Virus record (IMG/VR): IMGVR_UViG_3300035698_004463
Coordinates: 1 to 53,268 of that record
Length of the DNA: 53,268 bases
Reading direction: 5' to 3' (one strand)
DNA from: a virus
Below the pieces are notes generated by a model, which did not search any database, was not told where the DNA came from, and saw nothing but the letters and a program-made list of their open reading frames with translations. The translations under genes were made by a program, and so were the position numbers. Of the stretch, positions 13,956-42,749 are shown in pieces (within the stretch, counting starts at the first letter, position 1; each line of letters opens with the position of its first letter).

Positions 13956-14588
13956 TTACTCGTCAAACCCTTCTATATCAAACATCATAAATGTTTCACG
14001 GTAAAGTTTAAAATCATTAATCATTTGCTTAACGTGAAACATTTCTAATGATATGCCTTTAGTATGTAATGCTAATGGCTTTTGAAATAGTTTAACTAAT
14101 TTTAACAATTTTCTAATATCCTTATCTAATGCGTCAATAACAATCCGCTTATAAGTATTATCCGTAAGTATACCGACTATCCATTGGTGATCTGGATTTT
14201 CAGAATTATATCTTTTTGACACTTCTCTAACTTCATAATACAGCGCTCTTAATGGATTCAGTCCTGGTCTATACTTTTCCTCTATAAAATTAAATCTAAA
14301 ACTTTTATGTTCGGATGCCAAATTGTTCATTAAATGCAAGTAATCATTACTTAGCTTAAACTTCATATCAATCATTGTTGCACTAACAATATTTTTGTAG
14401 TCTGCAATTAGTAAATCTGCTAATTCTTGATGTTTAGCAGACAACTTCACATAATGTAGATTTAAAAGATCTTCTATATTATGTCTGCCGTCTAAAAATA
14501 TGTGTGGTAATGAATTGGTACGCTGGAAGTATTCAAGCTCATTCTGTATACGAAGTATTTCGAAGTCTATTATTACTCCTCTTCTCAT
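13956..14588 (-). CDS. Conserved-type protein of unknown function (210 aa)
   Basis: The protein is helical, rich in Leu, Ile and Lys, with no signal peptide or catalytic motif that I recognise. It begins MRRGVIIDFEILRIQNELEY and has YRPGLNPLRALYYEVREVSKRY in the middle. No SD is present. AATAAATA on the minus strand (14594-14601) is exactly 5 nt before the ATG and overlaps the upstream Nudix stop, so this gene belongs to the predicted leaderless set. Confidence 0.6.
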   Translation of the reverse strand: MRRGVIIDFEILRIQNELEYFQRTNSLPHIFLDGRHNIEDLLNLHYVKLSAKHQELADLLIADYKNIVSATMIDMKFKLSNDYLHLMNNLASEHKSFRFNFIEEKYRPGLNPLRALYYEVREVSKRYNSENPDHQWIVGILTDNTYKRIVIDALDKDIRKLLKLVKLFQKPLALHTKGISLEMFHVKQMINDFKLYRETFMMFDIEGFDE

Positions 14589-14593
14589 ACATG

Positions 14594-14601
14594 TATTTAT
14601 T
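14594..14601 (-). promoter_or_regulatory. Late-box variant AATAAATA, 5 nt from start codon
   Basis: One mismatch from T4 TATAAATA. With the T4 geometry (box at -13 to -6) transcription would begin on the A of the ATG at 14588. Confidence 0.45.
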
Positions 14602-15025
14602 CCTGATTGATTGATAAAATAGTATGTAGTTTAGTAGTACCTTTGTTTCGAATAAGAGTAGTTTTGGCACCTGCGTGCAAGGGCTGCGGCCACCATCCAA
14701 TGTCTACCCATGCATATCCCGCGCTCTCTGAGTTTAGGCTGGGCGTAAACTCTGATTCCACTACATACACAAAGCTATAGTAATAAAATTGCTTATCGGC
14801 GCTCTGAAACACGTCTATGGGGTTTAATTTAGTAAGCTCTGGTACAAAACCAATTTCTTCAGTTAACTCCCGTTGAATGGCAGCATATGGTGTTTCACCC
14901 TGCTCTAATGTGCCACCAAAAAAACCCCAAGTATTTTTGAATCGCTTTTCAGCTTTGCGAAGTTGCAACATGCAACGGCCAGTATTTCGAGCTAAAAAAA
15001 GTACACCTGCGGCTATAGTAGTCAT
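14597..15025 (-). CDS. Nudix hydrolase
   Basis: 142 aa. A perfect Nudix box runs from G38 to G59: G-x5-E44-x7-REL-x-EE57-x-G (GGTLEQGE, then QRELTEEIGF). Such enzymes cleave nucleoside diphosphates linked to another group, such as oxidised dNTPs, NAD, dinucleoside polyphosphates or capped RNA ends. Substrate cannot be deduced. It lies upstream of the unknown gene at 14588 on the minus strand. There is no SD; a weak late-type box GATAATTA is 5 nt upstream. T4 has NudE, but this sequence is not clearly its orthologue. Confidence 0.88.
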   Translation of the reverse strand: MTTIAAGVLFLARNTGRCMLQLRKAEKRFKNTWGFFGGTLEQGETPYAAIQRELTEEIGFVPELTKLNPIDVFQSADKQFYYYSFVYVVESEFTPSLNSESAGYAWVDIGWWPQPLHAGAKTTLIRNKGTTKLHTILSINQE

Positions 15026-15030
15026 ACTAA

Positions 15031-15038
15031 TAATTATC
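15031..15038 (-). promoter_or_regulatory. Weak late-box variant GATAATTA, 5 nt from Nudix start
   Basis: One mismatch from the local consensus GATAAATA at the same 5-nt spacing seen at six other starts. On its own it would be weak evidence. Confidence 0.35.
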
Positions 15039-15090
15039 TAATTTTAGTATCTTGTCCTAAGATTACAGGATCAGTATCCAGGCTTATAAT

Positions 15091-15098
15091 GATAAATA
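15091..15098 (+). promoter_or_regulatory. Late promoter box GATAAATA before homing endonuclease
   Basis: Exact box directly after a TATAAT (15085-15090), which may itself be a host-type -10 with a poor -35 (ATTACA, 17 nt upstream). The leader to the ATG at 15159 is about 55 nt with AAGGAG. Confidence 0.6.
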
Positions 15099-15158
15099 AA
15101 GATGTAGATCGCGTATTACTAGTACCATCTACTCTAACGCTAATAAGGAGCACCAGCA

Positions 15159-15860
15159 ATGATATTTATCAATAACAAATATACTAGTCTATATTATTCA
15201 ATCATAAAAGCAGCAAAAGAAAATCCACATACAGGTTATACTGAAGAACATCACATCGTTCCGAAATCAATCGGTGGTGGAAACGAAAACGACAATTTAA
15301 TACGATTATCTGCAAGAGAACATTTTATTTGTCATCGTCTTTTAACTAAAATGGCAACTGGTGATGATAAACGTAAAATGGTATTTGCTATGAACGGTAT
15401 GTTACGAAGAGGTAATAATCAAGACCGTTATGTACCGAATGCAAGAACATATCAAAAAGTTAAAGAGGATTTTCATAAAGTTAACCATTTTAACGATCCG
15501 GCGTGGCAGAAAAACAATAAAGGTGCAAAAGGACATAAGCATACTGAAGAAACAAAGAAAAAGATGTCAAAGGCTTGGACTTGGCAGAGACGATTACAAG
15601 CTAGAGTCCGTGGTAGAACCCATTCTGAAGAAACTAGGAAGAAAATAAGTGAAACGTTGAAGGGGAAAATGGTCGGTGAGAACAATTCTTTTTATGGAAA
15701 ATCACATAGTGATACTACACGCGCTATTATGAAAGAGAAAAAGAAAGGTTTCCGTCCAGATTTCGCAGATAAGCGGTTAACATGCGAGCATTGTTTACGA
15801 GAATTCAATCCTGGAAATTATTCACAGTATCACGGTGATAAATGCAAATTAAAGAACTAG
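15159..15860 (+). CDS. Free-standing HNH homing endonuclease with NUMOD3-type motifs
   Basis: 233 aa, AAGGAG 9 nt before ATG. The HNH core is EEHHIVPKSIGGGNENDNLI followed by REHFICHRLL (H31/H32, N43-N46, H55, H59). Two helix-type DNA-binding repeats follow: HTEETKKKMSKAW (about 127-139) and THSEETRKKISETLKGK (about 155-171), plus GENNSFYGKSHS. A C-terminal Cys/His finger has CEHC, then HGDKC. The protein is basic throughout. It is inserted on the plus strand between minus-strand Nudix and gp15 genes, and its last codons overlap the convergent gp15 end by 12 nt. It probably cuts related phage genomes lacking it, promoting its own spread and that of its flanks. Confidence 0.85.
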   Translation: MIFINNKYTSLYYSIIKAAKENPHTGYTEEHHIVPKSIGGGNENDNLIRLSAREHFICHRLLTKMATGDDKRKMVFAMNGMLRRGNNQDRYVPNARTYQKVKEDFHKVNHFNDPAWQKNNKGAKGHKHTEETKKKMSKAWTWQRRLQARVRGRTHSEETRKKISETLKGKMVGENNSFYGKSHSDTTRAIMKEKKKGFRPDFADKRLTCEHCLREFNPGNYSQYHGDKCKLKN

Positions 15861-17189
15861 GCGAAAATATCCCGGATTGTAAACACCTTCCCAACTGCTT
15901 ATCCAAGCACCGTCAACCCATTTGTATTGTGAATTTGTATTGGTGTTAGTTACATACTCTATTGTGAGTGTAATTGATGCAGCAAAAACAACTACCCAAA
16001 CTGTTCCATTATATTGAATGATATCGTTCGCACCTGCGTCCACACCCCAATTTATTTGTCCACTGGAAGATATGGCTTCAGTTATTAGGTAACGTTGATT
16101 AAGTGTTGCACTTGGTAATCCTGATCCAGGAAAGTTTGCTCGAGCATCAATAATCATGTCTACAGCAGTTAAGGTGTTTGATGGTAAAGTATCAGTATCT
16201 AAGTTAAAAATTAACATAGTGTCGTCGCCTGGATTAGCAACAACCGATCCAACTATTGCTGATGTTTCATCATCAGTATTGTTTGTAACGTTTAACTTTA
16301 ATAAACTAGATGCAGTTAACACCCCTTGCATTTCAATTAATAAAGGCCAAGATTGTCCATTTCCATTTAAATCCAGCAGTGTTGCACTTGATCCATTTAT
16401 TTGCAATTTATAATCATTTGGAGTAATAACTATCTCAGCAGTATCTTCAATTGATCCGAAAAAATCTGCATATTCACTGCTGAACCCTAAATCAGCAATG
16501 CTCTTTGTACTATGTATGTCTGCAATAATACGTTGGATAATAGTTTGTCTCTTGACTTTTGCTGGTGGGGAAATCCAAATGCCAGTAGTAAACGTCATAG
16601 ATGCAATATCCAATGATTCGTCTACTCCTTGTGGTATGTTTCTACTAGTCCAATTAATGTCTGTCATTTCCATCTCAAATACGTTTACCCAGTTAAGAGG
16701 ATTAGAATCAGATTGCAGTTGTATACCAGGATTAAACAATATCATTATTTGTTCTAATAATTGTAATTTTGTATCAGTGTTAGTGGTCCAGATATCAACT
16801 TTAAAAGTTAATTCATAAGGTATAGGCATATAGCGTTTAGTCGTGTATAAATTTCCTTTCTTTGCAGAATAACTGTTTGTTTCTGGGTCCCACGCCCGCT
16901 CTGCAACTTGTTGAGTGTCAACATTAGTTGGGTCTTGCATTCTGTTTCTTGCAATCCTTAAACTATTAACAGTTATAGCAATTAATGGCGCTGATGCTAT
17001 TATATTTTCTGAATTATTACGCAATATACTTGAAACCATTCTACTACTATCGCCATATTGGACAGGTACACGATTAAATTTTGCCTCTCCGTTAGAGTAT
17101 TCTCTTACCTGGAAGTGAGAAAACACCCTAATAATTTGTTGCAGGTATCGCTTAATTTGTTCATCGTAAAAAAAGTCCATATTTGACAT
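15849..17189 (-). CDS. 15: Tail completion / sheath stabiliser, T4 gp15-like
   Basis: 446 aa. The N-terminal part follows the T4 gp15 pattern: FFYDEQIKRYLQQIIRVFSHFQV, then KFNRVPVQYGD, NSENIIASAPLIAITV, PIPYELTFKVDIWT, LEQIMILFNPG, and FTTGIWISPPAKVKRQ around residue 210. In T4, gp15 caps the tail tube and sheath and joins the tail to the neck. The C-terminal 200 residues are an extra beta-rich region absent from the 272-aa T4 protein. Translation starts 2 nt after the gp14 stop, so the two are coupled. The order gp14-gp15 is conserved but the pair is inverted relative to gp13. Confidence 0.7.
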   Translation of the reverse strand: MSNMDFFYDEQIKRYLQQIIRVFSHFQVREYSNGEAKFNRVPVQYGDSSRMVSSILRNNSENIIASAPLIAITVNSLRIARNRMQDPTNVDTQQVAERAWDPETNSYSAKKGNLYTTKRYMPIPYELTFKVDIWTTNTDTKLQLLEQIMILFNPGIQLQSDSNPLNWVNVFEMEMTDINWTSRNIPQGVDESLDIASMTFTTGIWISPPAKVKRQTIIQRIIADIHSTKSIADLGFSSEYADFFGSIEDTAEIVITPNDYKLQINGSSATLLDLNGNGQSWPLLIEMQGVLTASSLLKLNVTNNTDDETSAIVGSVVANPGDDTMLIFNLDTDTLPSNTLTAVDMIIDARANFPGSGLPSATLNQRYLITEAISSSGQINWGVDAGANDIIQYNGTVWVVVFAASITLTIEYVTNTNTNSQYKWVDGAWISSWEGVYNPGYFRLVL

Positions 17190-17191
17190 GT

Positions 17192-18256
17192 TTAATTATC
17201 CGTCCTAGGCTTAACAACAGCTGATAAATTAGTTTTCTCAGGAACAGTTTGTCCTGTTTGGTCATCTGTGCGTGTTTCGTCATTATTAACAAACGTAGTA
17301 AGTATCTTATTGGCGGCTGCCCATGTTCCTCGAGAATCAGTGCCTACATTCGTCCATCGTGTTCCAGTTTTCTTAAACAGTCTATTAGGTGAAAAATCAG
17401 TACGCAAGAAAAAATTCCCGTCTGTTACTCCAATAGTTGGAAATGTTTCTCCACTGCCAATTAAGCTAACCCCATTTGGAGGAAGACCGTCTTGTCCACC
17501 AAAGTCAATAATTGGCTTATCAGGAACATCAGGATCAAAATACAAGTGCGCAGTATCTCGGTATTGTGGATCAAAGCCAACATCGTTGGTTGCTTCTGTT
17601 ACTATAGCGTCGTTTATTGCAATAGAGTTTGAGTATGTACTAATAAGGTTACGTAAATCTCCAGCTTCTTCACCAGTTCCAAGAATATCTCTATATTCTT
17701 GACTGTCTGTTATGGGTCCTAATTTAACTCTCCATAAATGAGGCCACCAGTTTGGGTCAAACCCTTCTGCCGGCCTACTACCGTCAGTAACAACATGAAA
17801 CCTGTTGATTGCGTCATCACTGCCAAGTAATAAATCATCACGCATATGTGGAAGCTCAATCACGTCACCTGGCATAAGCTTTCTACCAATTGACTCAACC
17901 ATACTTTCGATATGGAAATTCATAAATACTGTACCGTTAGCCAACAACAAGCCAAATTGTGTTAAGTCATATGCATCGCCATCTGCTATATTGTATTGTC
18001 CACGAAGTTCATAAATATTATCGTCATATTTTCTATCTCTGTTTTCTAAAAACAGCAAATCTTGAATAAATGTTTGATCTTCAATACCAGCACTAGCTGG
18101 TCTAGTTGCATCTCCATTATTAGGAGTTTCGTGAATTCCAAGATACTTGTGTATGTACACACCAGTACCACCAGCATGCAAATGTTCACCTACGATTCGA
18201 TCGATAAAGCTAAAATCGTTTCCTTTGACGGGTTTCCACAAACTTAAACGTGGCAT
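17192..18256 (-). CDS. 14: Neck protein, T4 gp14-like
   Basis: 354 aa, GAGGA SD, late box 29 nt upstream. Features seen: RLSLWKPVKGNDFSFIDR, GGTGVYIHKYLG, FIQDLLFLENRDRKYD, NIYELRGQYN and IGRKLMPGDVIELPHMRDD. The last two resemble the gp14 stretch where a PREGDLLYFP-like motif follows the YYIPRE region. In T4, gp13 and gp14 form the neck that seals the filled head and accepts the tail. The identification rests on pattern, on coupling to the gp15-like gene, and on gp13 lying only 1.7 kb away. Longer than T4 gp14 (256 aa). Confidence 0.6.
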   Translation of the reverse strand: MPRLSLWKPVKGNDFSFIDRIVGEHLHAGGTGVYIHKYLGIHETPNNGDATRPASAGIEDQTFIQDLLFLENRDRKYDDNIYELRGQYNIADGDAYDLTQFGLLLANGTVFMNFHIESMVESIGRKLMPGDVIELPHMRDDLLLGSDDAINRFHVVTDGSRPAEGFDPNWWPHLWRVKLGPITDSQEYRDILGTGEEAGDLRNLISTYSNSIAINDAIVTEATNDVGFDPQYRDTAHLYFDPDVPDKPIIDFGGQDGLPPNGVSLIGSGETFPTIGVTDGNFFLRTDFSPNRLFKKTGTRWTNVGTDSRGTWAAANKILTTFVNNDETRTDDQTGQTVPEKTNLSAVVKPRTDN

Positions 18257-18285
18257 TTATGTTATCCTCACATTAATCATAACAC

Positions 18286-18293
18286 TATTTATC
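18286..18293 (-). promoter_or_regulatory. Late promoter box GATAAATA, minus strand, for gp14-gp15
   Basis: Exact box, followed by G-TGTTATGATTAA and an SD. It lies in a 144-nt divergent region shared with the plus-strand sigma-70 promoter 18346-18373. Confidence 0.75.
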
Positions 18294-18345
18294 ATTATAT
18301 GTGCAGCAAAAACAATCGTATCGACTAAATACATTACAACAATAC

Positions 18346-18373
18346 TTGACAACACTGTAAACTCGTGTATAAT
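18346..18373 (+). promoter_or_regulatory. Sigma-70 promoter (TTGACA-16-TATAAT)
   Basis: Both hexamers are perfect consensus. It drives three small or unknown genes from 18401, which should therefore be early. Confidence 0.85.
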
Positions 18374-18400
18374 CCATCGTGTTTACTAAAAGGTAAGATT

Positions 18401-18607
18401 ATGGAATTATTTGAGATTGGAATTATTGCGCTAGTAGGAATAAGCAGTTATTTTTCATATAAAACAGGCAGGTCAACTGGCACTGTTACTGCTATTGTTT
18501 TTTTAAAAGAAGCTAAATGCTTGAAACCAATAGACAGTATAAAAGGTACAGAAGATTGGCCCGATTATTTAAAATCTATGTATGATAACCCAAGGAAATA
18601 CTTATAA
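18401..18607 (+). CDS. Small early membrane-type protein (68 aa)
   Basis: Start set at the ATG with AAAGGTAAG upstream, because it follows directly on a consensus host promoter; an in-frame upstream start would precede the transcript. One N-terminal hydrophobic segment (IGIIALVGISSYFSY, about 6-20), then a polar tail ending DNPRKYL. Possible inner-membrane early protein affecting the host; function unknown. TAA overlaps the next ATG. Confidence 0.6.
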   Translation: MELFEIGIIALVGISSYFSYKTGRSTGTVTAIVFLKEAKCLKPIDSIKGTEDWPDYLKSMYDNPRKYL

Positions 18608-18777: not shown

Positions 18778-19900
18778 AAAAGAAATATATCTTACAAAAG
18801 AACCAGATTGGACAAAGTTAAGTAAGGAAACAGCACAAGACAAACAACTAATTGCATTTAAGTATGCTGATTTTTTTGTACATTACGAAATTGACAATAA
18901 ATCCAAAGCTTCTGCGCTAAAATTATGGCTCAAAGATGATAGCGGTTGGGATATTGATGAAATAAAGAAAGTTGGTAAACTGCCGGATTATTATTTTAGT
19001 ACAGCTGGCAAGATTGCATTTATAGCAAAAAGGCTAGGGTACATACCTGAGTATCATTTGTCTCATATTCATGATCAACGATTGTTTTGGATAAAATCAA
19101 GTGAAAATCTTAAAGAAGAAGTTGAAGACACTGTTGCTCTTGCAAAGACTCAACCTAAACTTAGCATTCAAGCTAGAATGGCTGAGCAAGTAGGACCATT
19201 ATGTGGCGAATGGGAAGCTATATTAGATTTAATAACAGGTGGTGGATTTGATGTAACTAAATTTGACCCTTATGGTGATATGCAAACCTTTGAGGGTGGT
19301 TTGATTAAACCAAACCATGCAAAAATTATTAAAAATTCATATAATAATGACTATATTGAGTCATTAGATGTAGTTAAATGGAAAGATGAAGAAATTAAGG
19401 AAGCATTTAGTCACCTTACTGCAAAAACACGCAAGGCATACTTGGCATTTTATGAAAAAATTAATACAGCATGTGATACATATATTGTAACAGGCAAAGC
19501 GCAACGAAAAACAAGAAAGCCTAAAGCAGTTTCAAAAGAAAGATTGGTTACTAAGCTAAAGTATAAATTAAATGATAGTGTTCTCGGTATAGCAAGTATT
19601 AATCCTATAGAATTAATTGATGCACAAGAAGTTTGGGTATATAACACTAAAACTAGGAAGCTCGGCGTGTTTTATAAGGATAATTTTTCTACAGGCATAA
19701 CAGTTAAGGGTACGTCGTTAGTTGGTTATGATGAAGTAACAAGCAGACAGCGCACGCTGAGAAAGCCAGTAGAGCAACTGAAGGATTTTAAAGGCAATGC
19801 TAGAACCAAGTACAAGAAAGCATACAATGCACTGACAACTTCTGACATTAAGCTGAAAGGGCGCCTAAGTGAACACATTATTATATTAAAAACATTCTAA
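18761..19900 (+). CDS. Conserved T4-like phage protein of unknown function (379 aa)
   Basis: Start chosen at the ATG 6 nt after GGAGGAAAG... (GGAGG 18748-18752) rather than an in-frame upstream start. Highly charged N-terminus (MAVKRKKEIYLTKEPDWTKL). The C-terminal half contains VWVYNTKTRKLGVFYKDN and KGTSLVGYDEVTSRQRTLRKP, followed by a basic KGNARTKYKKAYNAL and GRLSEHIIILKTF; this pattern recalls a conserved hypothetical of marine T4-like phages. Expressed from the early promoter at 18346. Basic content suggests nucleic-acid contact, but no fold is recognised. Confidence 0.6.
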   Translation: MAVKRKKEIYLTKEPDWTKLSKETAQDKQLIAFKYADFFVHYEIDNKSKASALKLWLKDDSGWDIDEIKKVGKLPDYYFSTAGKIAFIAKRLGYIPEYHLSHIHDQRLFWIKSSENLKEEVEDTVALAKTQPKLSIQARMAEQVGPLCGEWEAILDLITGGGFDVTKFDPYGDMQTFEGGLIKPNHAKIIKNSYNNDYIESLDVVKWKDEEIKEAFSHLTAKTRKAYLAFYEKINTACDTYIVTGKAQRKTRKPKAVSKERLVTKLKYKLNDSVLGIASINPIELIDAQEVWVYNTKTRKLGVFYKDNFSTGITVKGTSLVGYDEVTSRQRTLRKPVEQLKDFKGNARTKYKKAYNALTTSDIKLKGRLSEHIIILKTF

Positions 19901-19915
19901 TATTTGTGGCATATA

Positions 19916-19923
19916 GATAAATA
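19916..19923 (+). promoter_or_regulatory. Late box GATAAATA, 5 nt from gp13 start (leaderless)
   Basis: Exact box, spacer ACGGT, then ATG. With T4 geometry +1 is the A of the start codon. No SD is present. Confidence 0.75.
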
Positions 19924-19928
19924 ACGGT

Positions 19929-20687
19929 ATGCCACAAAATCAAATCGGATATTTAAGTAGAGAAGAAGTTATCACAGAGATACAATTGCGTTTAGCTGAT
20001 GGTATGGTTGACGTTGAGCTTGATCGTGAACATTATGATGTTGCAATTAATAAAGCCATTTCAATTTATAGACAAATGAGCTCTAACAGTGTCGAAGAAA
20101 GTATAATATTTTTTAACACTGAAAGTGGTGTTAATGATTACACAATGCCAGATGAAGTTGTAGAAGTACAGCGCATGTACAGGCGAGGAATTGGATCAAA
20201 TGGTTCCGGTAGTAACTTTGATCCATTTGACGTAGCATTTAATAATATGTATATGTTGCAAGCTGGGTCAATTGGCGGATTAGCAGTATATGATGCATTT
20301 TCCCAATATAAAGAAACAATTAATAAGATTTTTGGTGGTGAATACAATTTTATATGGAATAGAAATTCACATGTTCTTAAAGTTTTAAGAAATATCAAGA
20401 ATATAGAAGAAATAGCAGTAACAGTGTATAACTTTGTACCGGAAAGTATATTATTACGTGATCTATATGCAAGTCCATGGATATCTGACATGTCGCTTTC
20501 CCAAAGTAAATTAATGTTAGGCGAAGCCAGAGGCAAATATACTACAGGTCTTCCTGGTGCCGGTGGTGCAATCATATTGAACGGTGAAAATTTAAAAGCT
20601 GATGCTAAAGTAGAAATAGAAGAATTACGCATGCAAATACAAAACATGGAAGAGGGCTCGGCGCCGCTGGGGTTTATAATAGGATGA
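19929..20687 (+). CDS. 13: Neck protein, T4 gp13-like
   Basis: 252 aa. Diagnostic segments: DREHYDVAINKAISIYRQMSSNSVEESI (36-63), DYTMPDEVVEVQRMYRRG, FDPFDVAFNNMYML, FGGEYNFIWNRNSHVLKVLR, and LSQSKLMLGEARGKYTTGLPGAGGAIILNGENLKADA near the C-terminus. These match the neck protein of marine T4-like phages. With gp14 it closes the packaged head. Start at 19929 keeps the conserved N-terminus, although there is no ribosome-binding site and the late box ends only 5 nt upstream. Confidence 0.75.
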   Translation: MPQNQIGYLSREEVITEIQLRLADGMVDVELDREHYDVAINKAISIYRQMSSNSVEESIIFFNTESGVNDYTMPDEVVEVQRMYRRGIGSNGSGSNFDPFDVAFNNMYMLQAGSIGGLAVYDAFSQYKETINKIFGGEYNFIWNRNSHVLKVLRNIKNIEEIAVTVYNFVPESILLRDLYASPWISDMSLSQSKLMLGEARGKYTTGLPGAGGAIILNGENLKADAKVEIEELRMQIQNMEEGSAPLGFIIG

Positions 20688-24698: not shown

Positions 24699-24706
24699 GA
24701 TAAATA
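24699..24706 (+). promoter_or_regulatory. Late promoter box GATAAATA for tail tube
   Basis: Exact box 33 nt before the ATG at 24740, just beyond the sheath terminator. Confidence 0.8.
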
Positions 24707-27340: not shown

Positions 27341-27436
27341 ATGCGATCTTACGAATTATTAGAAGACAAACAGGCTCAGAATAGATCAAATCTATTTAAT
27401 ATATCGCTGAATATTGCTAAATACTATTATGACTAA
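27341..27436 (+). CDS. Possible 31-aa ORF
   Basis: MRSYELLEDKQAQNR, ending IAKYYYD. Its N-terminus resembles the 15-aa ORF at 52990 (MRYYEL) and contains an L-L-E/D protease-like site. It overlaps the small-terminase start. No SD. Could be chance. Confidence 0.3.
   Translation: MRSYELLEDKQAQNRSNLFNISLNIAKYYYD
27416..27423 (+). promoter_or_regulatory. Late-box variant GCTAAATA, 5 nt from gp16 start (leaderless)
   Basis: Spacer CTATT, then ATG at 27429. The same GCTAAATA-N5-ATG occurs at 40922-40937. Confidence 0.65.
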
Positions 27437-27941
27437 AAAATTAGAAGAATTTTTTGATGTTCCTCCTATAGACAAAGCAACACCAATAACTAGTCCAATA
27501 GTGGACATTGCAAGTAATATTGCTAGCGATGTAGAAATAGTCGATAACGGACTATCAATATCAGAAAAAATTAACACAGCATTAAAACAAATAAAAAGCC
27601 AAGACGACCATTCTGCTGAAATGGACGACATATCAAAGAAAGCATTAGATAGTTATTCGCAACTTATGTCGTTAGGTATGAATGTGAGCGACATGGCAGC
27701 AGGCAAAATATTTGCAGAAGCTAGTACATTTTTAAAACTTGCGCTTGAATCAAGTGATGCAAAGGCACGAACTAGAGCAACCGAGTTAGACTTGATGCTT
27801 AAAAAGCTTAGGATTGATCGAATGAGTAGTCCTGGTGGTGATAATACTGAAGAGCTAGGGGCTACACAGGTATTTGATCGTAATGACTTGCTAAAAATCA
27901 TGAAAGCTACTCCTCCAGCCCTGCCTCCAAAAACCCCATAA
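27429..27941 (+). CDS. 16: Small terminase subunit, T4 gp16-like
   Basis: 170 aa from the ATG; an in-frame TTG 15 nt upstream would put its start inside the promoter. MTKKLEEFFDVPP, then the helical core DDISKKALDSYSQLMSLGMNVSDMAAGKIFAEASTFLKLALESSDAKARTRATELDLMLKKLRIDRM, like other T4-type small terminases. It forms a ring that recognises DNA and stimulates the large subunit. The large terminase lies 1.9 kb downstream with three probable core genes in between, an unusual separation. Confidence 0.68.
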   Translation: MTKKLEEFFDVPPIDKATPITSPIVDIASNIASDVEIVDNGLSISEKINTALKQIKSQDDHSAEMDDISKKALDSYSQLMSLGMNVSDMAAGKIFAEASTFLKLALESSDAKARTRATELDLMLKKLRIDRMSSPGGDNTEELGATQVFDRNDLLKIMKATPPALPPKTP

Positions 27942-31469: not shown

Positions 31470-31477
31470 GATAAATA
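31470..31477 (+). promoter_or_regulatory. Late box GATAAATA, 5 nt from start codon (leaderless)
   Basis: Spacer AGAGT then ATG 31483. Identical geometry to the gp13 gene. Confidence 0.72.
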
Positions 31478-31482: not shown

Positions 31483-33273
31483 ATGAGCATAAACATTGGA
31501 TTAGTAGCAGAACGAACATATAATTTACTTAAAGGGTTTGGTTACATTGTACAAAGCCATAACTTACAAGGTGAGGTTGTTATTGACCCTAGTGAGGCAA
31601 CGCGTTTTATGGTTGATTCTCCAAACATTTTAGTTAGAATAGACCCATCAGACAAATCACTTACTCTTAACACAAGCGAAGATTTAAGTGATCCTCAATT
31701 ACGCAAGTTACACAAAATGCTTAAACACTTAGCTCAGGATTATTTACTAAATTTTGATTACAATGTATTTGGCAGAACAATTAAACCACATGGCGAACGC
31801 CAAAACATAGCAAAAAACGCGGAGAAAGACATGGCTGATGTAATGGAAGCATTTAACAAAATGTTGAAACTTGCGGGCCTTGCTGAAGCAGATTTTGCCT
31901 TAGACGGTACAATGTCTCAAGGGAACGTAATAGATAGAAAAATCAAACCACAAGGCGAAAGCCAAAACATAGCGCAAAGCGCGGAGAAAGATATGGCAGA
32001 TGCTATTGGGGAAATGAGACAGCTGGCTGGACTTCCGCCACTTAACGAACAAGAATCAACTGTCGATGAAGCAGCAGTTCAATCGGATATTAAAAAGGAC
32101 AGCAAAATAAAAGTTACTGGAGTTAAGGGAATGAAATCCTCTCCATTCACTAAGAAATTTAAAAATATGGCAGCATATGACAAATGGTCAGAGTCAGATG
32201 CCGCAGATGATTTTTCTGTATCCCATGTTGAGAATCTAGATGAAAGCGTAATAGCAGAAGCTAAAGTTTGTGCTAAATGCGGCAAAGAAGATTGTCCGTG
32301 TCCAGAAGGTGAATGTACTTGTGAAGAAGAATCAGTTGAAGAAGGGAATAACATGGCAGATGTAATGGAAGCAAGCCTCAGTAAGATGACTGGCAGTGCA
32401 AAAACTAGCAAGCAACAATTAGAAAATGTTAAAATTGTAGTTAAGCATAAAAATGCAGTTAACGAAGAATCACGCGGTAGCAGAAGTCGAAACATCCATA
32501 GCATTTTTATAGAACGAGCAGGTGAGCGGTTTAAGATGCAAGAAAATAATTTGCAAGCAGCGCGGGCAATGGCCCGACACATATCAATGGGTGGTGAAAT
32601 GCATGACTCTGTTGGCGTGGCTATTAACGAGATGGCTACAGAAAGTAAAAAAATGAAAGAATTTGTCCGTTACGTAAGTGTATCCAAACTAATCAACGAA
32701 GACAATGCAGCATATATGCAACTTGCTGTAGACCATATTAGTGAAATTAAAGGAAAATTTAAAAAATTAAGTGGCAGTAACACTTATAAGCAAATGGCTG
32801 AAAATATTCAAAATATAGAACCAAGCCCAATTTTAGAAGATAATGACGATATAGAATACATGTTTACTGAAACGCATTTTGATTCTAAAGTAGCAAATGT
32901 TATGAGTAATTTAACATCATTAAGCTATAAGAAAAAAGCATTTGAAACTTATATCAATACAGCTATTAAAAAGGAAAGCTTTGATAACTTAGCAACAACA
33001 CTTCAGGAAAATGATGCTATTGAATTCACAACACCACATGCCCAACTTAGCCACCAAGTTTCACAACTAGGACACTCAGCAGTAGATGAACAGTTAGGTG
33101 CATACTTGCACAATGTAAGCTCTAAAATAAACAATGGCGGTGGGTTATCACAACACGAATATAGCACCATTAAAAGTTGCTTATCGGTAGCAAGTGGTAA
33201 GACAGGTGCACCGGAACCAATACAAAGTGTGACAGAGTCATATGAGGCATTTTTTGCCCAATATGATTGTTAA
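31483..33273 (+). CDS. Large repeat-containing core-type protein with CPCPEGECTC module (596 aa)
   Basis: N-terminal 95 residues form a compact alpha/beta domain (AERTYNLLKGFGYIVQSH, IRIDPSDKSLTLN-like). Two tandem repeats follow: IKPHGERQNIAKNAEKDMADVMEAF...LAGLAEA (100-136) and IKPQGESQNIAQSAEKDMADAIGEM...LAGLPPLNE (154-189), each ending in an L-x-E site. MADVMEA occurs a third time at 291-297. The Cys module (263-280) is preceded by I-A-E/A. The C-terminal half is helical. Sites and repeats suggest a head-core protein cut into peptides during maturation; this is inference. Confidence 0.5.
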   Translation: MSINIGLVAERTYNLLKGFGYIVQSHNLQGEVVIDPSEATRFMVDSPNILVRIDPSDKSLTLNTSEDLSDPQLRKLHKMLKHLAQDYLLNFDYNVFGRTIKPHGERQNIAKNAEKDMADVMEAFNKMLKLAGLAEADFALDGTMSQGNVIDRKIKPQGESQNIAQSAEKDMADAIGEMRQLAGLPPLNEQESTVDEAAVQSDIKKDSKIKVTGVKGMKSSPFTKKFKNMAAYDKWSESDAADDFSVSHVENLDESVIAEAKVCAKCGKEDCPCPEGECTCEEESVEEGNNMADVMEASLSKMTGSAKTSKQQLENVKIVVKHKNAVNEESRGSRSRNIHSIFIERAGERFKMQENNLQAARAMARHISMGGEMHDSVGVAINEMATESKKMKEFVRYVSVSKLINEDNAAYMQLAVDHISEIKGKFKKLSGSNTYKQMAENIQNIEPSPILEDNDDIEYMFTETHFDSKVANVMSNLTSLSYKKKAFETYINTAIKKESFDNLATTLQENDAIEFTTPHAQLSHQVSQLGHSAVDEQLGAYLHNVSSKINNGGGLSQHEYSTIKSCLSVASGKTGAPEPIQSVTESYEAFFAQYDC

Positions 33274-35800: not shown

Positions 35801-35802
35801 CT

Positions 35803-36310: not shown

Positions 36311-37873
36311 ATGAAAGCAACATTAGAAATTCGTGACGAAGTTAATATCAAGTTTATTGGCTTAGACGTACACACAAGAAGAAAAATATCTGACAAACTA
36401 AAATTCTTCCTTCCTCAAGCAACACACATGCCAGCGTTTAAATTAGGACGCTGGGATGGGTGTGTCCGATTTTGTGACCTTGCAGGAAGGTCCTATTTGA
36501 ATTTGTTAGATCGTATCTTGCCTATCATAACAAATGCAGGATATGAAATTGAAATAGACGATCATAGACATCCTTGGAACTTTAACTTTACAGAAGTCAG
36601 TGCTGATTTATTTAAAGGAAAGACTTGGCCTAAAGGGCACCGGTTTGAAGGCGACCCTGTTGTCTTGCGTGATTATCAGGTTGAAATAATAAACAAATTT
36701 ATCACTGATCCACAGTGCATACAACAAATTGCAACTGGTGCCGGTAAAACACTTATAACTGCTGCACTTAGTTATATGTGTGAATCTTATGGTCGAACTA
36801 TTGTAATAGTGCCGAACAAAGATTTGGTGGTGCAAACAGAGGAAGACTATGTAAATCTTGGATTAGATGTTGGCGTTTACTATGGTGACAGAAAGGAGTA
36901 TAACAAAACTCACACTATTTGTACTTGGCAAAGCCTGTCAATTTTAGAGAAAGCATCTAAACAATATTTAGCGGCAATATCTGAACTAGACGACACAGCG
37001 CAAGCTGAAATAAAACTGTCTGGTTATTGTTGGTGCTGTGAGCAAGAGTTACCAACACATAAACATAATTGTGTTGTTGGTAATGGCGACATACATGCAT
37101 TTATTAAAGATGTGGTTTGTATAATGGTAGATGAAGTACATAAAGCAAAGGCTGATGTACTTCGAGACATGTTAGGCGGTATATTTAGTAACTGTCCTAT
37201 ACGATGGGGACTAACAGGCACTGTTCCGAAAGATCCACATGAGGAAGCAGCATGCATATCATGTATCGGGCCAGTAACTGGACAGTTAAGTAGTAAGGAG
37301 CTTCAAGACATGGGCATCTTAGCTGACTTAGATATTGATATATTCCAAATGCAGGATGGCGAAATGGGCTTTAAGAGTTACGCACAGGAGCTTAAATGGT
37401 TAGTTACTGATGAAAAACGAATAAAGCACATTAGCACCATTATTGCTGGATTGGCTGAGCATGGCAACACTTTGGTATTGATTGATAGAATTGCTACGGG
37501 TGAATTACTAGCAGAACTAAATGAGGAATGGGTGTTTGTATCAGGAGCAACGAAGCAAGCTAAAAGAAAAGCTGAATATGACCAAATTGCAGAAACTGAT
37601 AATAAAGTTGTCGTAGCAACTTATGGCGTAGCAGCAGTTGGTTTAAATATACCTAGAATATTTAACTTAGTATTAATTGAGCCAGGTAAAAGTTTTGTTC
37701 GAGTAATACAAAGTATAGGGCGTGGAGTAAGAAAAGCAAACGACAAAGATTACCTTCATGTTGTGGACTTAACAAGTAATTTGAAGTACAGTAAGAAGCA
37801 TTTAACAACGAGAAAACAGTATTATAAAGAACAAGAATTTAGACATAAAGTAACAAAAATAAAATATAAATAA
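36311..37873 (+). CDS. uvsW: UvsW DNA/RNA helicase
   Basis: 520 aa superfamily 2 helicase. N-terminal T4-UvsW-type domain (LPQATHMPAFKLGRWDGCVRFCD), Q-like LRDYQVEII, Walker A ATGAGKT (141-147), VPNKDLVVQ, motif II DEVH (274-277), motif III GLTGT, motif V VATYGVAAVGLNI and motif VI QSIGRGVRK. It dissociates R-loops and branched DNA and shuts off origin initiation in T4. An insert before motif II (240-254, CWCCEQELPTHKHNC) is Cys/His-rich and may bind zinc; it is not in T4 UvsW as I know it. Confidence 0.93.
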   Translation: MKATLEIRDEVNIKFIGLDVHTRRKISDKLKFFLPQATHMPAFKLGRWDGCVRFCDLAGRSYLNLLDRILPIITNAGYEIEIDDHRHPWNFNFTEVSADLFKGKTWPKGHRFEGDPVVLRDYQVEIINKFITDPQCIQQIATGAGKTLITAALSYMCESYGRTIVIVPNKDLVVQTEEDYVNLGLDVGVYYGDRKEYNKTHTICTWQSLSILEKASKQYLAAISELDDTAQAEIKLSGYCWCCEQELPTHKHNCVVGNGDIHAFIKDVVCIMVDEVHKAKADVLRDMLGGIFSNCPIRWGLTGTVPKDPHEEAACISCIGPVTGQLSSKELQDMGILADLDIDIFQMQDGEMGFKSYAQELKWLVTDEKRIKHISTIIAGLAEHGNTLVLIDRIATGELLAELNEEWVFVSGATKQAKRKAEYDQIAETDNKVVVATYGVAAVGLNIPRIFNLVLIEPGKSFVRVIQSIGRGVRKANDKDYLHVVDLTSNLKYSKKHLTTRKQYYKEQEFRHKVTKIKYK

Positions 37874-37882
37874 GGAAAGAAA

Positions 37883-38095
37883 ATGCCAACAATAACAATA
37901 AGCAAAGATCTTGCAGAAAGAATAGAACAAAAAAGCTCAGGGTACAATATCAATGATCGACAATATAATAATCTTCGTTATGGTGATAGCGAAACTTGGT
38001 GGGAGGAGATGCTTGACGCTCACAATGCACTTGTGGCTATAAACCTAGATATTAAAGCAGGATTAAAAGCAGCATTAAAGGAAACAATTGATTAA
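37883..38095 (+). CDS. Small protein downstream of uvsW (70 aa)
   Basis: AAGGAAAG SD. Begins MPTITISKDLAERIEQ like a ribbon-helix-helix or antitoxin-type start, then NINDRQYNNLRYGDSETWWEEMLDAHNALVAINLDIKAGL. I do not recognise a family. Coupled to the next gene (TTAATGA). T4 has small genes after uvsW, but homology cannot be claimed. Confidence 0.5.
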   Translation: MPTITISKDLAERIEQKSSGYNINDRQYNNLRYGDSETWWEEMLDAHNALVAINLDIKAGLKAALKETID

Positions 38096-38592
38096 TGAAA
38101 ATTTTAACAGTTAATAACGACGTGTATGACTTAGACTCAGTTCCTAATGAAATAGACGACATAAGATACTGTGTCTTTGACGCTGGTGATCCTACTTATA
38201 TGGATTATTACTTTTTACCCCTTATATTTTTAGAAAGTTTCCACTCACCTGCTATATGTTTAACTATTGGCGAATATAAAATTCAAATGCCAATGGATTG
38301 GAGTATCGTAACAAGTGATGAAGATTTCAGCACAATTGAAGTATTGCCACTAGCAAGCTTAAATAATAGAGGCTTTATAGCGCCATTGTTTAACCCTCTT
38401 CGCAATGCGATACCTGATGCTGCTGAATTACAAATTACAAACATTTACCAAGATGTAAAATGGTACTTTCCTAAACTTAAAAATGGCCATGTATTAGTTG
38501 TGCCATTAGAAGACAAACCAGAACCAAAGTGTGCCTTGTTTGTTAAAGATCTTAATAAAGTAAAAGACATAGATTTCGCAGACTTATTATAG
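38095..38592 (+). CDS. Conserved-type protein of unknown function (165 aa)
   Basis: Mixed alpha/beta. Distinctive stretches are DYYFLPLIFLESF, YKIQMPMDWSIVTSD, EVLPLASLNNRGFIAPLFNPL and KNGHVLVVPLEDKPEPKCALFVKD. No catalytic pattern. It sits among replication genes, 8 nt before the next gene, so an accessory role in replication or late transcription is possible. Confidence 0.5.
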   Translation: MKILTVNNDVYDLDSVPNEIDDIRYCVFDAGDPTYMDYYFLPLIFLESFHSPAICLTIGEYKIQMPMDWSIVTSDEDFSTIEVLPLASLNNRGFIAPLFNPLRNAIPDAAELQITNIYQDVKWYFPKLKNGHVLVVPLEDKPEPKCALFVKDLNKVKDIDFADLL

Positions 38593-38600
38593 GAACACAC

Positions 38601-39077
38601 ATGGCTAAAAAAATACCAGCAATTGCACTAAAAGACATAATGTATGCAATTGACAAAAAAGACAAAAAGTATTATAGTAAGCTGACTGATGAACAAAAGA
38701 AAGCATTTAGCGCATGGATGATGATGCGTTATGCGAGTAGTGTACAAGGTGAAGCACAAGTAAAAAGTCATTACATTTATATGGTAAACGAACTTGTTAA
38801 CAAGCACTTTTCCGATGTCTCTGGGCATCCTGAATTGCAATGGTTATTACTAAGTGTATGTGGTATTGGTAGCATGCAATACCACCCATTCGTAAAACCA
38901 CCCAATGCACGCAAAAAGAAAAACAAAGTAGGCGAATTCATAAGTAAAATATATCCACATTACAAGCAAGACGAGCTAGACTTAATTATGGAACTTAATA
39001 GTAAAGATGATTTAAAACAACTAGCAATTGATACTGGTTACTCCGACAAAGAAATTAAGGATATATTTGGAAAATGA
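38601..39077 (+). CDS. Replication-cluster protein, possibly clamp-loader small subunit (158 aa)
   Basis: Basic, helical: DIMYAIDKKDKKYYSKL, FSAWMMMRYASSVQG, HYIYMVNELVNKHF, then PFVKPPNARKKKNKVGEFI and DDLKQLAIDTGYSDKEIKDIFGK. The order (a Trp/aromatic helix, a Met/Asn helix, then a basic loop) loosely recalls T4 gp62 (YxxFMVENALSQF...NLIGSG...GKRYGKW). I cannot confirm this by eye. No gp44 or gp45 is present in the window. Confidence 0.4.
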   Translation: MAKKIPAIALKDIMYAIDKKDKKYYSKLTDEQKKAFSAWMMMRYASSVQGEAQVKSHYIYMVNELVNKHFSDVSGHPELQWLLLSVCGIGSMQYHPFVKPPNARKKKNKVGEFISKIYPHYKQDELDLIMELNSKDDLKQLAIDTGYSDKEIKDIFGK

Positions 39078-39265
39078 AACCATATACATTACCATCTGGA
39101 AAAGCAGCAGTTAACTTTGGTGATTGGGATGGAAAGGAATATACATATCCACAAAAGCGAAAAGATTTGGAAAAAGCTTTAATGGAATCTTTAGATTTAC
39201 TAGCAATACTCACTGAGAAATCAGAAAATGAAACCAAAGCTATCCATGAAAAAAATGATAGATAA
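39074..39265 (+). CDS. Small protein (63 aa), unknown
   Basis: Starts inside the preceding stop (AAATGAAACC). MKPYTLPSGKAAVNFGDWDGKEY, then a helix DLEKALMESLDLLAILTEKSENETK. No family. The last 38 nt overlap the next ORF. Confidence 0.45.
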   Translation: MKPYTLPSGKAAVNFGDWDGKEYTYPQKRKDLEKALMESLDLLAILTEKSENETKAIHEKNDR

Positions 39266-39938
39266 TTCAAACAAGTGCAAGTGGTGTTTAAAATCGTTTC
39301 AATCTGAACGAACCATGAGCGTGCATATGTGCCCCAAGAAACGTAGGTGGGCAGATAAAGATATAAAACACATACAACTTGGTTATCGTGTATTTCAAAA
39401 ATTTTATGAAATAAATACTATGGCATCAAAGCCAAAGACACTAGAAGATTTTATACGTAGCAATTATTATGAAGGGTTTATTAAATTTGGTAGGGCATGT
39501 ATTCGCAATGAATACTTAGCACCAGATTTATTTGCTGAATGGTTAATTAGGAATGCTAAAAAATTAGCCGATTGGCACAAGGATGCATTATATGATGAAT
39601 TTTTATTAGGGTATGTTAGAAAGGAATCTGGTATACGTGCGCTAGAACGCGGTATTCTTTATCTTAGTGAGTGGGCAGAGGAAACAGGTAACCCGTGGGA
39701 TGAGTATTTTATAAAGGTAACAACACCAAGAGCAATACATGATATCCGCGCAGCGAAAATATCTCCATGGTTGTTATATTTAAGTGTAACTGGTGATGAA
39801 TTACTTACTAGGTTAGGCGATGAGCAGGTTAATATGATACAACACGTAATCGATGCTAAATTTTGGATGGCGCTATTTTCTAAAAATAAAGAAGAAGTAC
39901 GGGAAGTTAAAATGATATTGGCAGCAGCCGGACTATGA
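39228..39938 (+). CDS. Zinc-finger protein of the replication cluster (236 aa)
   Basis: C2HC-like finger near the N-terminus: CKWCLKSFQSERTMSVHMC (about 17-35), followed by PKKRRW and a helical body (FQKFYEINTMASKPKTLEDFIRSNYYEGFIKFGRAC, LFAEWLIRNAKKLADWHKDALYDEFL, ALERGILYLSEWAEETG, ISPWLLYLSV). In-frame ATGs at 39246 and 39255 are alternative starts. It looks like a conserved phage protein seen near primase and helicase genes. A helicase-loader role (T4 gp59) was considered but not supported. Confidence 0.5.
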   Translation: MKPKLSMKKMIDNSNKCKWCLKSFQSERTMSVHMCPKKRRWADKDIKHIQLGYRVFQKFYEINTMASKPKTLEDFIRSNYYEGFIKFGRACIRNEYLAPDLFAEWLIRNAKKLADWHKDALYDEFLLGYVRKESGIRALERGILYLSEWAEETGNPWDEYFIKVTTPRAIHDIRAAKISPWLLYLSVTGDELLTRLGDEQVNMIQHVIDAKFWMALFSKNKEEVREVKMILAAAGL

Positions 39939-40543
39939 AAATTAATTTTGATGTAGACATTGATATGGCTAACAGGGACGATTTTTTAAAATTAATAAAC
40001 CATACACCTGCTAGTATTGAAAAAGATGAAAGACTTACAAAACACAACACTGGTGTGTATTTCCAAGACGTACCATTCCTACCCATGGAAGGATATAGCA
40101 GTATTGGGCACAAAGAAGCTGAAAAAGATGAATGGTTTAAGGTAGACTTTTTAAATAACACAGTATATCAAGATGTTAAAAATGAAGCCCACTTGGATAA
40201 ATTAATTAGTATTGAACCAATGTGGTCATTATTGGACTATGAGGATATCGTAGAGCAATTGTACCACATTAATGGTCATTTTGAAATTGTTACACAATAT
40301 AAGCCAACAAGTATTGAAGAATTAGCAATGGTCTTAGCTGTAATCAGACCAGGAAAACGACACTTATTGGGCCGTACTTTTACTGAAATGGCTGATAGTA
40401 TATGGACTGCTACTTTAGACGGTAGCTATTATTTTAAACACAGCCATGCAATAGCATATGCATCAGTTATTGTTGTACAGTTAAATTTACTTTTAGAACA
40501 ATCTACAATACCTTCCGTATTAGCTGAAACCCACGCCTCTTAA
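39935..40543 (+). CDS. Miniature DnaE-like protein (PolIII alpha palm/finger fragment)
   Basis: 202 aa. Three segments are collinear with bacterial DnaE: WFKVDFLNNTVYQDV (67-81) with the KFDFLGLRTLT strand; YKPTSIEELAMVLAVIRPG (122-140) with CFEDMIALVALFRPG; and GSYYFKHSHAIAYASVIVVQLNLLLE (163-188) with [23 protein letters not shown]. The region between (YQEQVM and the following helices), the PHP domain and the clamp-binding tail are missing. It cannot be a full polymerase. It may bind DNA, nucleotide or a replication partner. Start overlaps the preceding stop. The 3' end overlaps the convergent gene by 41 nt. Confidence 0.6.
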   Translation: MKINFDVDIDMANRDDFLKLINHTPASIEKDERLTKHNTGVYFQDVPFLPMEGYSSIGHKEAEKDEWFKVDFLNNTVYQDVKNEAHLDKLISIEPMWSLLDYEDIVEQLYHINGHFEIVTQYKPTSIEELAMVLAVIRPGKRHLLGRTFTEMADSIWTATLDGSYYFKHSHAIAYASVIVVQLNLLLEQSTIPSVLAETHAS

Positions 40544-40868
40544 TCCGTTTTTTCAACATGTCCTGCATTGTAGTCATTGGACCAAATAAGTGTTCTACAT
40601 TTTTCATCATAAATGTTGACTGGAACTTCTTAAATAGCTGCATCTCATGATGTAAAAAGATATCAATTGGCATAAGCCTATTGCTTTCATTCCACCATAA
40701 GTCACCAAGTGAAATCAGCTCTTCTCTCATTCCAGGAGTTGGTATTTTTTCCAAATCATAAAATGTAAGTATTGTTTTGTCGTAGTTTATAACTATGCCG
40801 TAGTGTGTTGACTCGCTATAATTGAGTCCTGTAATAAATGGAAATTGTTCTTGGTTTATTTCATGCAT
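40503..40868 (-). CDS. Conserved-type protein of unknown function (121 aa)
   Basis: The start is put at the ATG at 40868, because TATAAATA (40874-40881, minus strand) is exactly 5 nt upstream; a longer frame from 40898 would start before the promoter. Sequence: MHEINQEQFPFITGLNY, YDLEKIPTPGMREELISLGDLWWNESNRLMPIDIFL, then VEHLFGPMTTMQDMLKKRIKRRGFQLIR. The basic C-terminus suggests nucleic-acid binding. Family not recognised. Confidence 0.6.
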   Translation of the reverse strand: MHEINQEQFPFITGLNYSESTHYGIVINYDKTILTFYDLEKIPTPGMREELISLGDLWWNESNRLMPIDIFLHHEMQLFKKFQSTFMMKNVEHLFGPMTTMQDMLKKRIKRRGFQLIRKVL

Positions 40869-40873
40869 AGTGT

Positions 40874-40881
40874 TATTTATA
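40874..40881 (-). promoter_or_regulatory. Late box TATAAATA, 5 nt from start codon (leaderless, minus strand)
   Basis: Perfect T4 consensus, spacer ACACT, then ATG (40868). It is the clearest case of the fixed 5-nt geometry. Confidence 0.75.
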
Positions 40882-40921
40882 ACGATACATAAACACACCA
40901 GTTAGATTTATGGTGATTTCT

Positions 40922-40929
40922 GCTAAATA
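40922..40929 (+). promoter_or_regulatory. Late-box variant GCTAAATA, 5 nt from start codon (leaderless)
   Basis: Spacer GTAGT, then ATG 40935. It is divergent from the minus-strand box 40 nt away. Confidence 0.65.
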
Positions 40930-40934
40930 GTAGT

Positions 40935-41720
40935 ATGCAAACCGGTGATACTAGATTATTTTTATACGACAATACTGTGGAACTTGTTATTACAACAACC
41001 AGCCTAAGCGTGAGCAACCTACCTATGAATCATAGAAAATTACAGGCCCACAAGGGCTTAACCAATACAATCATATTTAATATTAGAAATCGAGATAGGA
41101 ATTTACAGAATGTGTTTACTGACGTATTAACTGCATACTTTATAAACCCCACTACTAAGACACGTTTATTTACTAAATTATTAGAACATACAAGTGACAT
41201 AGGAATCTCCAAATTGGTACTAGAAACTGGAGATATACAAAATATTGACCCAGGACTGTATCGCATGTACGTAGCTCGCACTGGGATAGATGGAAATGAG
41301 TCACCAGTTTACTCAAATCAAAATAATGGTGTAGCATTTGATATAGAAATAAGTGAAGAAGCAGAGTATGAACCAATTGCAACACAAGAGGATAGCACAT
41401 TTACTAATGTTGGTGCAAATGTTAATTCTTCATCAGCTCTTTTTGGTAATCTTGATCGTAATTTTACTAACGCACAACATACTTTAGGAATTTATACAAC
41501 AACATATACCGGTAATATAATAGTGCAAGGTAGTTGTGTGGAAAATACACCAAATTTAGACGATGCAAGTGTTGACTGGTTTGTTATTGAAACTATTCCA
41601 CTTGCAAACGTGTCTGGCATTACACATCTTACGTTCCAAATGAATCTAAACTGGGTCCGAATACTTGAATATCCTGACAACAATAATAGCATTGTTAGTA
41701 ATTTCATGCTCCGTAATTAA
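40935..41720 (+). CDS. Virion-type beta-rich protein (261 aa)
   Basis: Pattern of alternating strands (DTRLFLYDNTVELVITTTSLSVSNLPMNHRKLQAHKGLTNTIIFNIRNRDR) like an Ig or baseplate-upper-type domain (1-140). An acidic linker (EISEEAEYEP) leads to a C-terminal domain with NWVRILEYPDNNNSIVSNFMLRN. Similar two-domain proteins occur as virion components of marine T4-like phages. Likely a baseplate or fibre-network subunit. It is late-expressed in the middle of replication genes. Confidence 0.5.
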   Translation: MQTGDTRLFLYDNTVELVITTTSLSVSNLPMNHRKLQAHKGLTNTIIFNIRNRDRNLQNVFTDVLTAYFINPTTKTRLFTKLLEHTSDIGISKLVLETGDIQNIDPGLYRMYVARTGIDGNESPVYSNQNNGVAFDIEISEEAEYEPIATQEDSTFTNVGANVNSSSALFGNLDRNFTNAQHTLGIYTTTYTGNIIVQGSCVENTPNLDDASVDWFVIETIPLANVSGITHLTFQMNLNWVRILEYPDNNNSIVSNFMLRN

Positions 41721-41748
41721 TTGACAAATAATAGAAATGCTGTATAAT
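41721..41748 (+). promoter_or_regulatory. Sigma-70 promoter (TTGACA-16-TATAAT) for primase-helicase
   Basis: Consensus hexamers. TATAAT ends 5 nt before ATG 41754, so the early primase mRNA should be leaderless or nearly so. Confidence 0.88.
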
Positions 41749-41753
41749 GTAGC

Positions 41754-42749
41754 ATGTCTATAGAATCCATTGTTGAACATACCCACAGGCTGTTACTTGA
41801 TAACCTTCCGGCTAGAACAAAGCATACTCCTAGCGGTTGGGCTATCTTTAATTGCCCTATCTGTTCAGATAAACGCCAACGTGCAGGCATTATAAAAAGC
41901 AGTGCAAAGATTAGTTTTAATTGTTTTAATTGTCATTTTAAAACTGGTTGGGCACCAGGACCAGTATTAGGCGACAAATACCGAGTTCTTGCACTAGCCT
42001 TAGGCGCAACAGATGCTGACGTACACGCCGTAAAAATAGAACTGTTAAAAGAGTCTGATATATTTGAAAATGATTTTCCAACTAATAAGGAATATGTATT
42101 TAAGTCTTCCAAGTTTAAAATTTTAGACTTACCAGAAAACACATCAATGATAGAAGACTTGCCAGACAACCACGCTGTCAAGCAATATGCAATAGAAAGG
42201 GGAATATTAGGGTTATATCCATTATTGCATGTGAATGATGTAAAGAATAGAAAACGAGTAACAGTACCTTATACTTATAATGGCGAGTTAGTAGGGTGGA
42301 CTGGTAGACACGTTAGTCCACCAAATAAAGAAACAGCAAAATACATACAAAGTGTACAAACAGGATATGTATTTAATATGGACAGGTTCGACAACCACAA
42401 GCGCCAAATAGTAATAGTGGTGGAAGGAGTATTTGATGCTATTCTGATTGATGGTGTTAGTGTGTTAGGAAACACAATGTCTCCTGAACAAATACACATG
42501 ATTAATAAATTAGACAAACGGGTAATCTTATGCCCAGATAGAGATAAAGCAGGTAAATCCCTAATAGAACAAGCAGCTGAAGCAGACTGGGAAGTTAGCT
42601 TTCCGCCATGGCATAGCAAGTGTAAAGATGCAGCTGATGCTGTTGCCAGATATGGAAGAATGCTAACAATTGAATCGATAATTAAGTATGCAACGGCAAA
42701 TAAAACAAAAATAAAAGTAAAAACAAGGATGATGGATATTGGGAACTGA
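41754..42749 (+). CDS. 61: DNA primase, T4 gp61-like
   Basis: 331 aa. N-terminal zinc ribbon C34-x2-C37 and C57-x2-C60 (NCPICSDK, FNCFNC). TOPRIM domain: IVVEGVFDAIL with E224, then LCPDRDKAGKSL with D262 and D264. Synthesises RNA primers at the fork with the gp41 helicase, whose gene overlaps the 3' end by 11 nt. No SD, consistent with the promoter lying 5 nt from the ATG. Confidence 0.92.
   Translation: MSIESIVEHTHRLLLDNLPARTKHTPSGWAIFNCPICSDKRQRAGIIKSSAKISFNCFNCHFKTGWAPGPVLGDKYRVLALALGATDADVHAVKIELLKESDIFENDFPTNKEYVFKSSKFKILDLPENTSMIEDLPDNHAVKQYAIERGILGLYPLLHVNDVKNRKRVTVPYTYNGELVGWTGRHVSPPNKETAKYIQSVQTGYVFNMDRFDNHKRQIVIVVEGVFDAILIDGVSVLGNTMSPEQIHMINKLDKRVILCPDRDKAGKSLIEQAAEADWEVSFPPWHSKCKDAADAVARYGRMLTIESIIKYATANKTKIKVKTRMMDIGN

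Follow-up and report, generated by a model that had tools for sequence, protein, structure and literature searches.

The window analysed here, a complete IMG/VR record of 53,268 bases, covers part of the genome of a T4-type myovirus. Among its products are a neck protein, a tail sheath, a tail tube and a large terminase, together with UvsW-like and DnaB-like helicases, a primase and a single-strand binding protein. A Nol-like carbamoyltransferase (phrog_1601) is encoded at 11595–13397, and carbamoyltransferases are annotated in the cultured pelagiphage HTVC008M, too. A near-identity search with the window among known phages gave no match. Judged by the neck protein, Pseudomonas phage PA5oct and related phages (46%) come closest among cultured phages, followed by Agrobacterium phage Atu_ph07 (38%) and the jumbo phages of the GAP32/CBB type (about 37%). 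IMG/VR holds at least 194 relatives by neck protein, 80 of which (68–84% identical) were taken for analysis, and searching GTDB genomes with the same protein for host assignment brought up no relative.

The earlier note had drawn attention to seven genes in which exactly five nucleotides separate a late promoter box from the start codon (box-N5-ATG). All seven sites are present in the window sequence, and a T immediately precedes the ATG in every one of them. On the forward strand, the box GATAAATA at 19916–19923 is joined by acggt to ATG 19929 of the neck protein gene (head-tail adaptor Ad2, phrog_211; 19929–20687), a layout that recurs in 76 of 81 marine loci. The box GCTAAATA at 27416–27423 stands ctatt away from ATG 27429 of a conserved protein beginning MTKKLEE (27429–27941), with box-N5-ATG in 31 of 38 orthologous places. 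Only 4 nt past the stop codon of the terminase gene, a further GATAAATA (31470–31477) is followed by agagt and ATG 31483 of a virion structural protein gene (phrog_13484; 31483–33273), which in marine relatives has six predicted leaderless and two leadered, Shine-Dalgarno (SD)-bearing versions and in PA5oct is also leadered with an SD.

On the reverse strand, AATAAATA (14594–14601), within which the TAA stop of the upstream gene sits, leads via catgt to ATG 14588 of the gene at 13956–14588; among its orthologous places, the spacing is N5 in seven and N6 in two. The box TATAAATA (40874–40881, reverse strand) precedes ATG 40868 of a phrog_11637 gene (40503–40868) by acact, with N5-ATG in three orthologous places and N5-GTG in four. 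Divergent from it, GCTAAATA at 40922–40929 (forward strand) precedes ATG 40935 of a virion structural protein gene (phrog_14467; 40935–41720) by gtagt; here, three places are predicted leaderless and five leadered (23–26 nt, mostly with an SD). The genes at 40868 and 40935 thus form a putative leaderless pair, back to back, with two late boxes within 66 bp. Both L089 and the 89-kb relative G002 retain the pair, and in other relatives one of the two genes has N5-GTG and the opposite one is leadered.

Six of these seven assignments are supported, their boxes being of types that peak at N5 in relatives. The exception is GATAATTA (15031–15038, reverse strand), which lies ttagt upstream of ATG 15025 of a Nudix hydrolase gene (14597–15025): ATAATTA is not enriched at N5 within the family and a box occurs in none of 10 orthologous places, leaving the leaderless status of this gene uncertain. 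The two gene starts that the earlier note had corrected, 27429 and 40868, were borne out, with orthologues aligning from the same first codon and carrying the box at N5. Elsewhere in the window, AATAAATA is found 2 nt 5′ of a possible in-frame start, ATG 39420 (39410–39420; MASKPKTLED...), which falls inside the longest frame beginning at 39228, so that this gene has two candidate starts.

Spacing and conservation of the N5 sites

To obtain a spectrum of spacings, ATGs opening at least 50 codons were counted by their distance from an exact box, NATAAATA or RCTAAATA. The window contains six such ATGs at N5 versus a mean of 0.31 at the other spacings from N0 to N13, a 250-kb relative 27 versus 0.23, and eight related contigs together 70 versus 1.46, with neighbouring counts of 0 at N4 and 8 at N6. 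Both box types contribute to the peak in relatives, with 60 ATGs at N5 versus 1.3 at other spacings for NATAAATA and 10 versus 0.6 for CTAAATA, and permuted-box controls gave no comparable N5 peak. The refuting outcome named in the earlier note, no genome-wide excess of N5 spacing, was thus looked for in the relatives and did not arise. Since the 70 ATGs of the eight contigs represent 42 gene families (71 ATGs in 43 orthologous groups if 15025 is included), the excess does not stem from one gene being counted repeatedly.

The arrangement is conserved across orthologues that are 40–84% identical. When GTAGT-ATG was used as a bait against the IMG/VR collection, 109 of the 116 ATGs among the matches listed opened at least 50 codons, versus 26 of 120 among the matches listed for an N6 bait, a comparison that is valid for what follows the ATG and not for total numbers. 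AUG is the preferred start codon, as N5 of ATAAATA is occupied by ATG in 60 cases and by GTG in three. Three changes of leader state fall on a tree of the neck gene, a pattern consistent with a leader having been gained twice, one gain nested within the other.

Spacings of N6 or N7 occur in the orthologues L126 10766(-), L121 5429, L132 11283 and L120 14266(-), hinting at either a shift of +1 by a base or two or working leaders of 1–2 nt. A conserved frame of 36 codons (M-S/T-KIKV...GEW-V/I-RP), situated directly after GCTAAATA and N5, was also encountered in L013 14774(-), L016 11064(-), L021 11586(-) and L027 9479(-); it constitutes a small predicted leaderless gene that lies under the usual gene-size cut-offs.

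As for gene content, N5 promoters precede neck and virion protein genes in the window and terminase, baseplate wedge and structural protein genes in the 250-kb relative. A homologue of the late sigma factor gp55 (phrog_12791, E 5e-93) was found in this relative, the window being a 53-kb fragment.

Leadered late genes of the same phages

An ATAAATA (or CTAAATA) core is present at six sites of the window, and the profile of the late promoters from -25 to -14 reveals AT richness and no other conserved element. Besides the N5 genes, there are late genes with a leader, exemplified by GATAAATA at 17–24 (forward strand), followed by gtgtt, an A and, at N25, ATG 50, and by GATAAATA at 24699–24706 (forward strand), which lies N33 from ATG 24740 of the tail tube gene, with the SD aggag in between. 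The earlier note had placed all other late-promoted genes at 19 nt or more, and N19, N23, N25 (twice), N29, N30, N33 and further distances are indeed found in the window. Its claim of an empty range from N5 to N19 was inexact, as TATAAATA also occurs at N10 (before 37883) and N11 (before 9806). These two boxes (within 37865–37883 and 9787–9806) fall on stop-start junctions with AAGGA-type SDs and do not display the GATAAATA...T pattern; they are probably not late promoters.

The two classes differ in their ribosome binding sites and in how tightly they are packed. An SD motif of at least 4 nt accompanies 10% of the N5 genes, against a background of 17%, compared to 89% of the leadered late genes, a value somewhat favoured by the choice of leadered starts among candidate ATGs according to the best SD. 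The distance from box to start in the leadered class, searched from 12 nt upwards, is at minimum 16 nt. The median gap to an upstream gene on the same strand amounts to 17 nt for N5 genes versus 60 nt for leadered ones, and at 21 of 70 N5 genes the box overlaps or directly adjoins the stop codon of the upstream gene. Stop codons are available within the box itself (aTAAata), and a TAG is formed with a following G.

What the classes share is the promoter spacer: in the same contigs, leadered promoters exhibit an N5-like preference for G at -5, T at -4, A at -3, R (A/G) at -2 and T at -1, and their inferred +1 is A in 69% and G in 9% of cases. This common spacer, along with A/G at the inferred +1, suggests that N5 puts +1 on the start codon. 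At the neck locus of the relative L049, the order GATAAATA-GTAGT-ATCAATGGAGAATAGTTT-ATG combines this promoter spacer with an SD-bearing leader. Gene 18256(-), leadered in the window and predicted leaderless in most relatives, lies downstream of GATAAATA at 18286–18293 (reverse strand), which would place an AUG at +1 (18280). This AUG opens a 7-codon frame, MINVRIT (18257–18280), that runs directly up to the SD-led start 18256. A similar frame of seven codons (MIIMEFK) overlaps the start of the same gene in L049, making these frames leader-peptide-like in two relatives.

Proposed leaderless initiation and its alternatives

The promoter positions and the missing SDs can be read directly from the sequence. 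The best explanation for the N5 sites is very probably that a T4-type late promoter has been fused to the start codon, giving rise to leaderless late mRNAs. According to the earlier note, the A of the ATG coincides with +1 at N5 spacing, in agreement with the published T4 late boxes, which span -13 to -6 (PMC1524935); the same rule, carried over from T4, is used here. A gp55-like late sigma factor on the host RNA polymerase would read the box, and the late polymerase would initiate at the first nucleotide of the start codon. The resulting mRNA would have neither a 5′ leader nor an SD site, and the ribosome would initiate by recognising the 5′-terminal AUG (rarely GUG), a mode of translation suggested by T4 and by general knowledge of leaderless mRNAs. 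In the second late class of the same phages, an identical promoter spacer would be followed by an untranslated leader with an SD, the start lying at least 16 nt from the box. Intermediate spacings would be expected to be few because either mode works, whereas intermediate leaders would not. In the leaderless form, stop codon, promoter and start codon would share about 16–25 bp at gene junctions, and this merging of signals is likely to be an advantage. A preference of the host for leaderless mRNAs may play a part as well.

The leaderless interpretation, as put forward in the earlier note, gains from the N5 excess, the conservation among orthologues, the missing SDs, the common spacer and the case of HTVC008M described below, but other readings have to be weighed against these observations. 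The N5 ATG might be part of the initial transcribed sequence, with translation beginning at a later codon, as could be imagined from gene 18256(-) and L049, where the +1 ATG opens just seven codons before an SD-led start. We consider this very improbable, given that leadered promoters of the same phages are without an ATG at +1 to +3, that the N5 ATG opens a long frame in nearly all of the collection matches listed, and that orthologous proteins align from the N5 codon, with upstream SDs being absent. Equally remote is the idea that the boxes arose by chance or are relics, with longer read-through mRNAs serving as templates for translation of the genes. The proximity of many N5 genes to a same-strand gene would permit read-through in addition, but the spacing is exact to the base over the whole range of protein identity, the divergent pair 40868/40935 (in L089 as well) has no gene directly upstream on the same strand, and read-through mRNAs would offer the N5 genes no SD.

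It is also conceivable, though unlikely, that transcription starts one or a few bases off the assumed +1, which would yield leaders of 1–3 nt rather than strictly leaderless mRNAs. The N6 and N7 orthologues and the family count at N6 favour this reading; they would count against strictly leaderless mRNAs by implying a leader of 1–2 nt unless +1 shifts. Conversely, the sharp N5 peak, the N5-GTG orthologues and the A/G at the same position in leadered promoters argue that +1 is the codon's first base.

If the fused promoter and start codon operate as proposed, a widespread and mostly uncultured marine branch would express a subset of its virion genes from predicted leaderless mRNAs, and their start codons could be read from the promoter, which is of use for annotation. 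Furthermore, the N5 design suggests how compact genomes merge signals, and the N5 genes offer natural material for studying the conditions under which leaderless translation can compete.

Distribution and comparison with known systems

HTVC008M presents a second case. Its genome has 11 ATGs at N5 versus 0.31 at other spacings, all 11 being annotated CDS starts in the deposited record, and it encodes a gp55-like late sigma factor (phrog_234, E 3.5e-66). These start codons lie at 6280, 7562, 11972, 19456, 31132, 49760, 75559, 75830 and 142360 and, on the minus strand, at 18916 and 16007. As in the window, the design is box-N5-ATG, and the genes concerned include those for a baseplate wedge, a DNA end protector and a tail completion protein; unlike the window group, HTVC008M belongs to another T4-type lineage (Kyanoviridae in the record) and its box is mostly TATAAATA. 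A convincing N5 class was not seen in T4, KVP40, Aeh1, S-PM2, P-TIM68, Syn9, two single-cell marine viruses, PA5oct, GAP32, Atu_ph07 or Vibrio phage 2.275.O, indicating that T4-type phages do not share the design as a rule. It must thus have had more than one origin or have been passed on by exchange. Phage-encoded ribosomal protein S21, which HTVC008M possesses, was rejected as a cause; the 250-kb relative lacks it, and phages that have no N5 class carry it.

More tentatively, and with considerable doubt on our part, the fused stop-promoter-start element may have arisen at least twice in marine T4-type phages (in the uncultured family of the window and in HTVC008M), may move genes between the leaderless and the SD-led late class and may be adapted to hosts in which infection finds ribosomes with a preference for leaderless mRNAs. 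What appears to be new here is the predicted combination of two known elements, the T4 late promoter and the leaderless mRNA. In the literature searched, consisting mostly of sources other than subscription journals, no description was found of late genes of T4-type phages being leaderless, nor of leaderless genes in HTVC008M.

T4 late transcription is a textbook system, in which the promoters use gp55, gp33 and gp45 and the genes are generally taken as SD-led. The late promoters of T4 (TATAAATA) resemble those of the window group in their ATAAATA core at -13 to -6, the putative lack of a -35 element and the virion genes downstream, and T4, like the 250-kb relative, has a sigma factor of the gp55 family. 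However, T4 boxes stand at a distance from the genes, with no frame-opening N5 site in 50 kb and two chance-like N5 matches in the whole genome, whereas the family of the window mostly uses GATAAATA with a GTAGT-like spacer. In PA5oct and the CBB/GAP32-related jumbo phages, too, structural genes are preceded by ATAAATA boxes (PMC5259590). Unlike the window group, PA5oct and GAP32 show no N5 excess, and the PA5oct neck gene has kept its box, yet at 32 nt from the start codon. Leaderless mRNAs of bacteria and temperate phages, for their part, carry the start codon at the 5′ end, lack an SD and strongly prefer AUG, the cI case of lambda being that of a single gene. Compared to lambda, in which leaderless mRNA was first discovered (PMC3160421), the N5 sites would represent a late promoter class of a T4-type family, with the layout present in about 27 genes of one genome.
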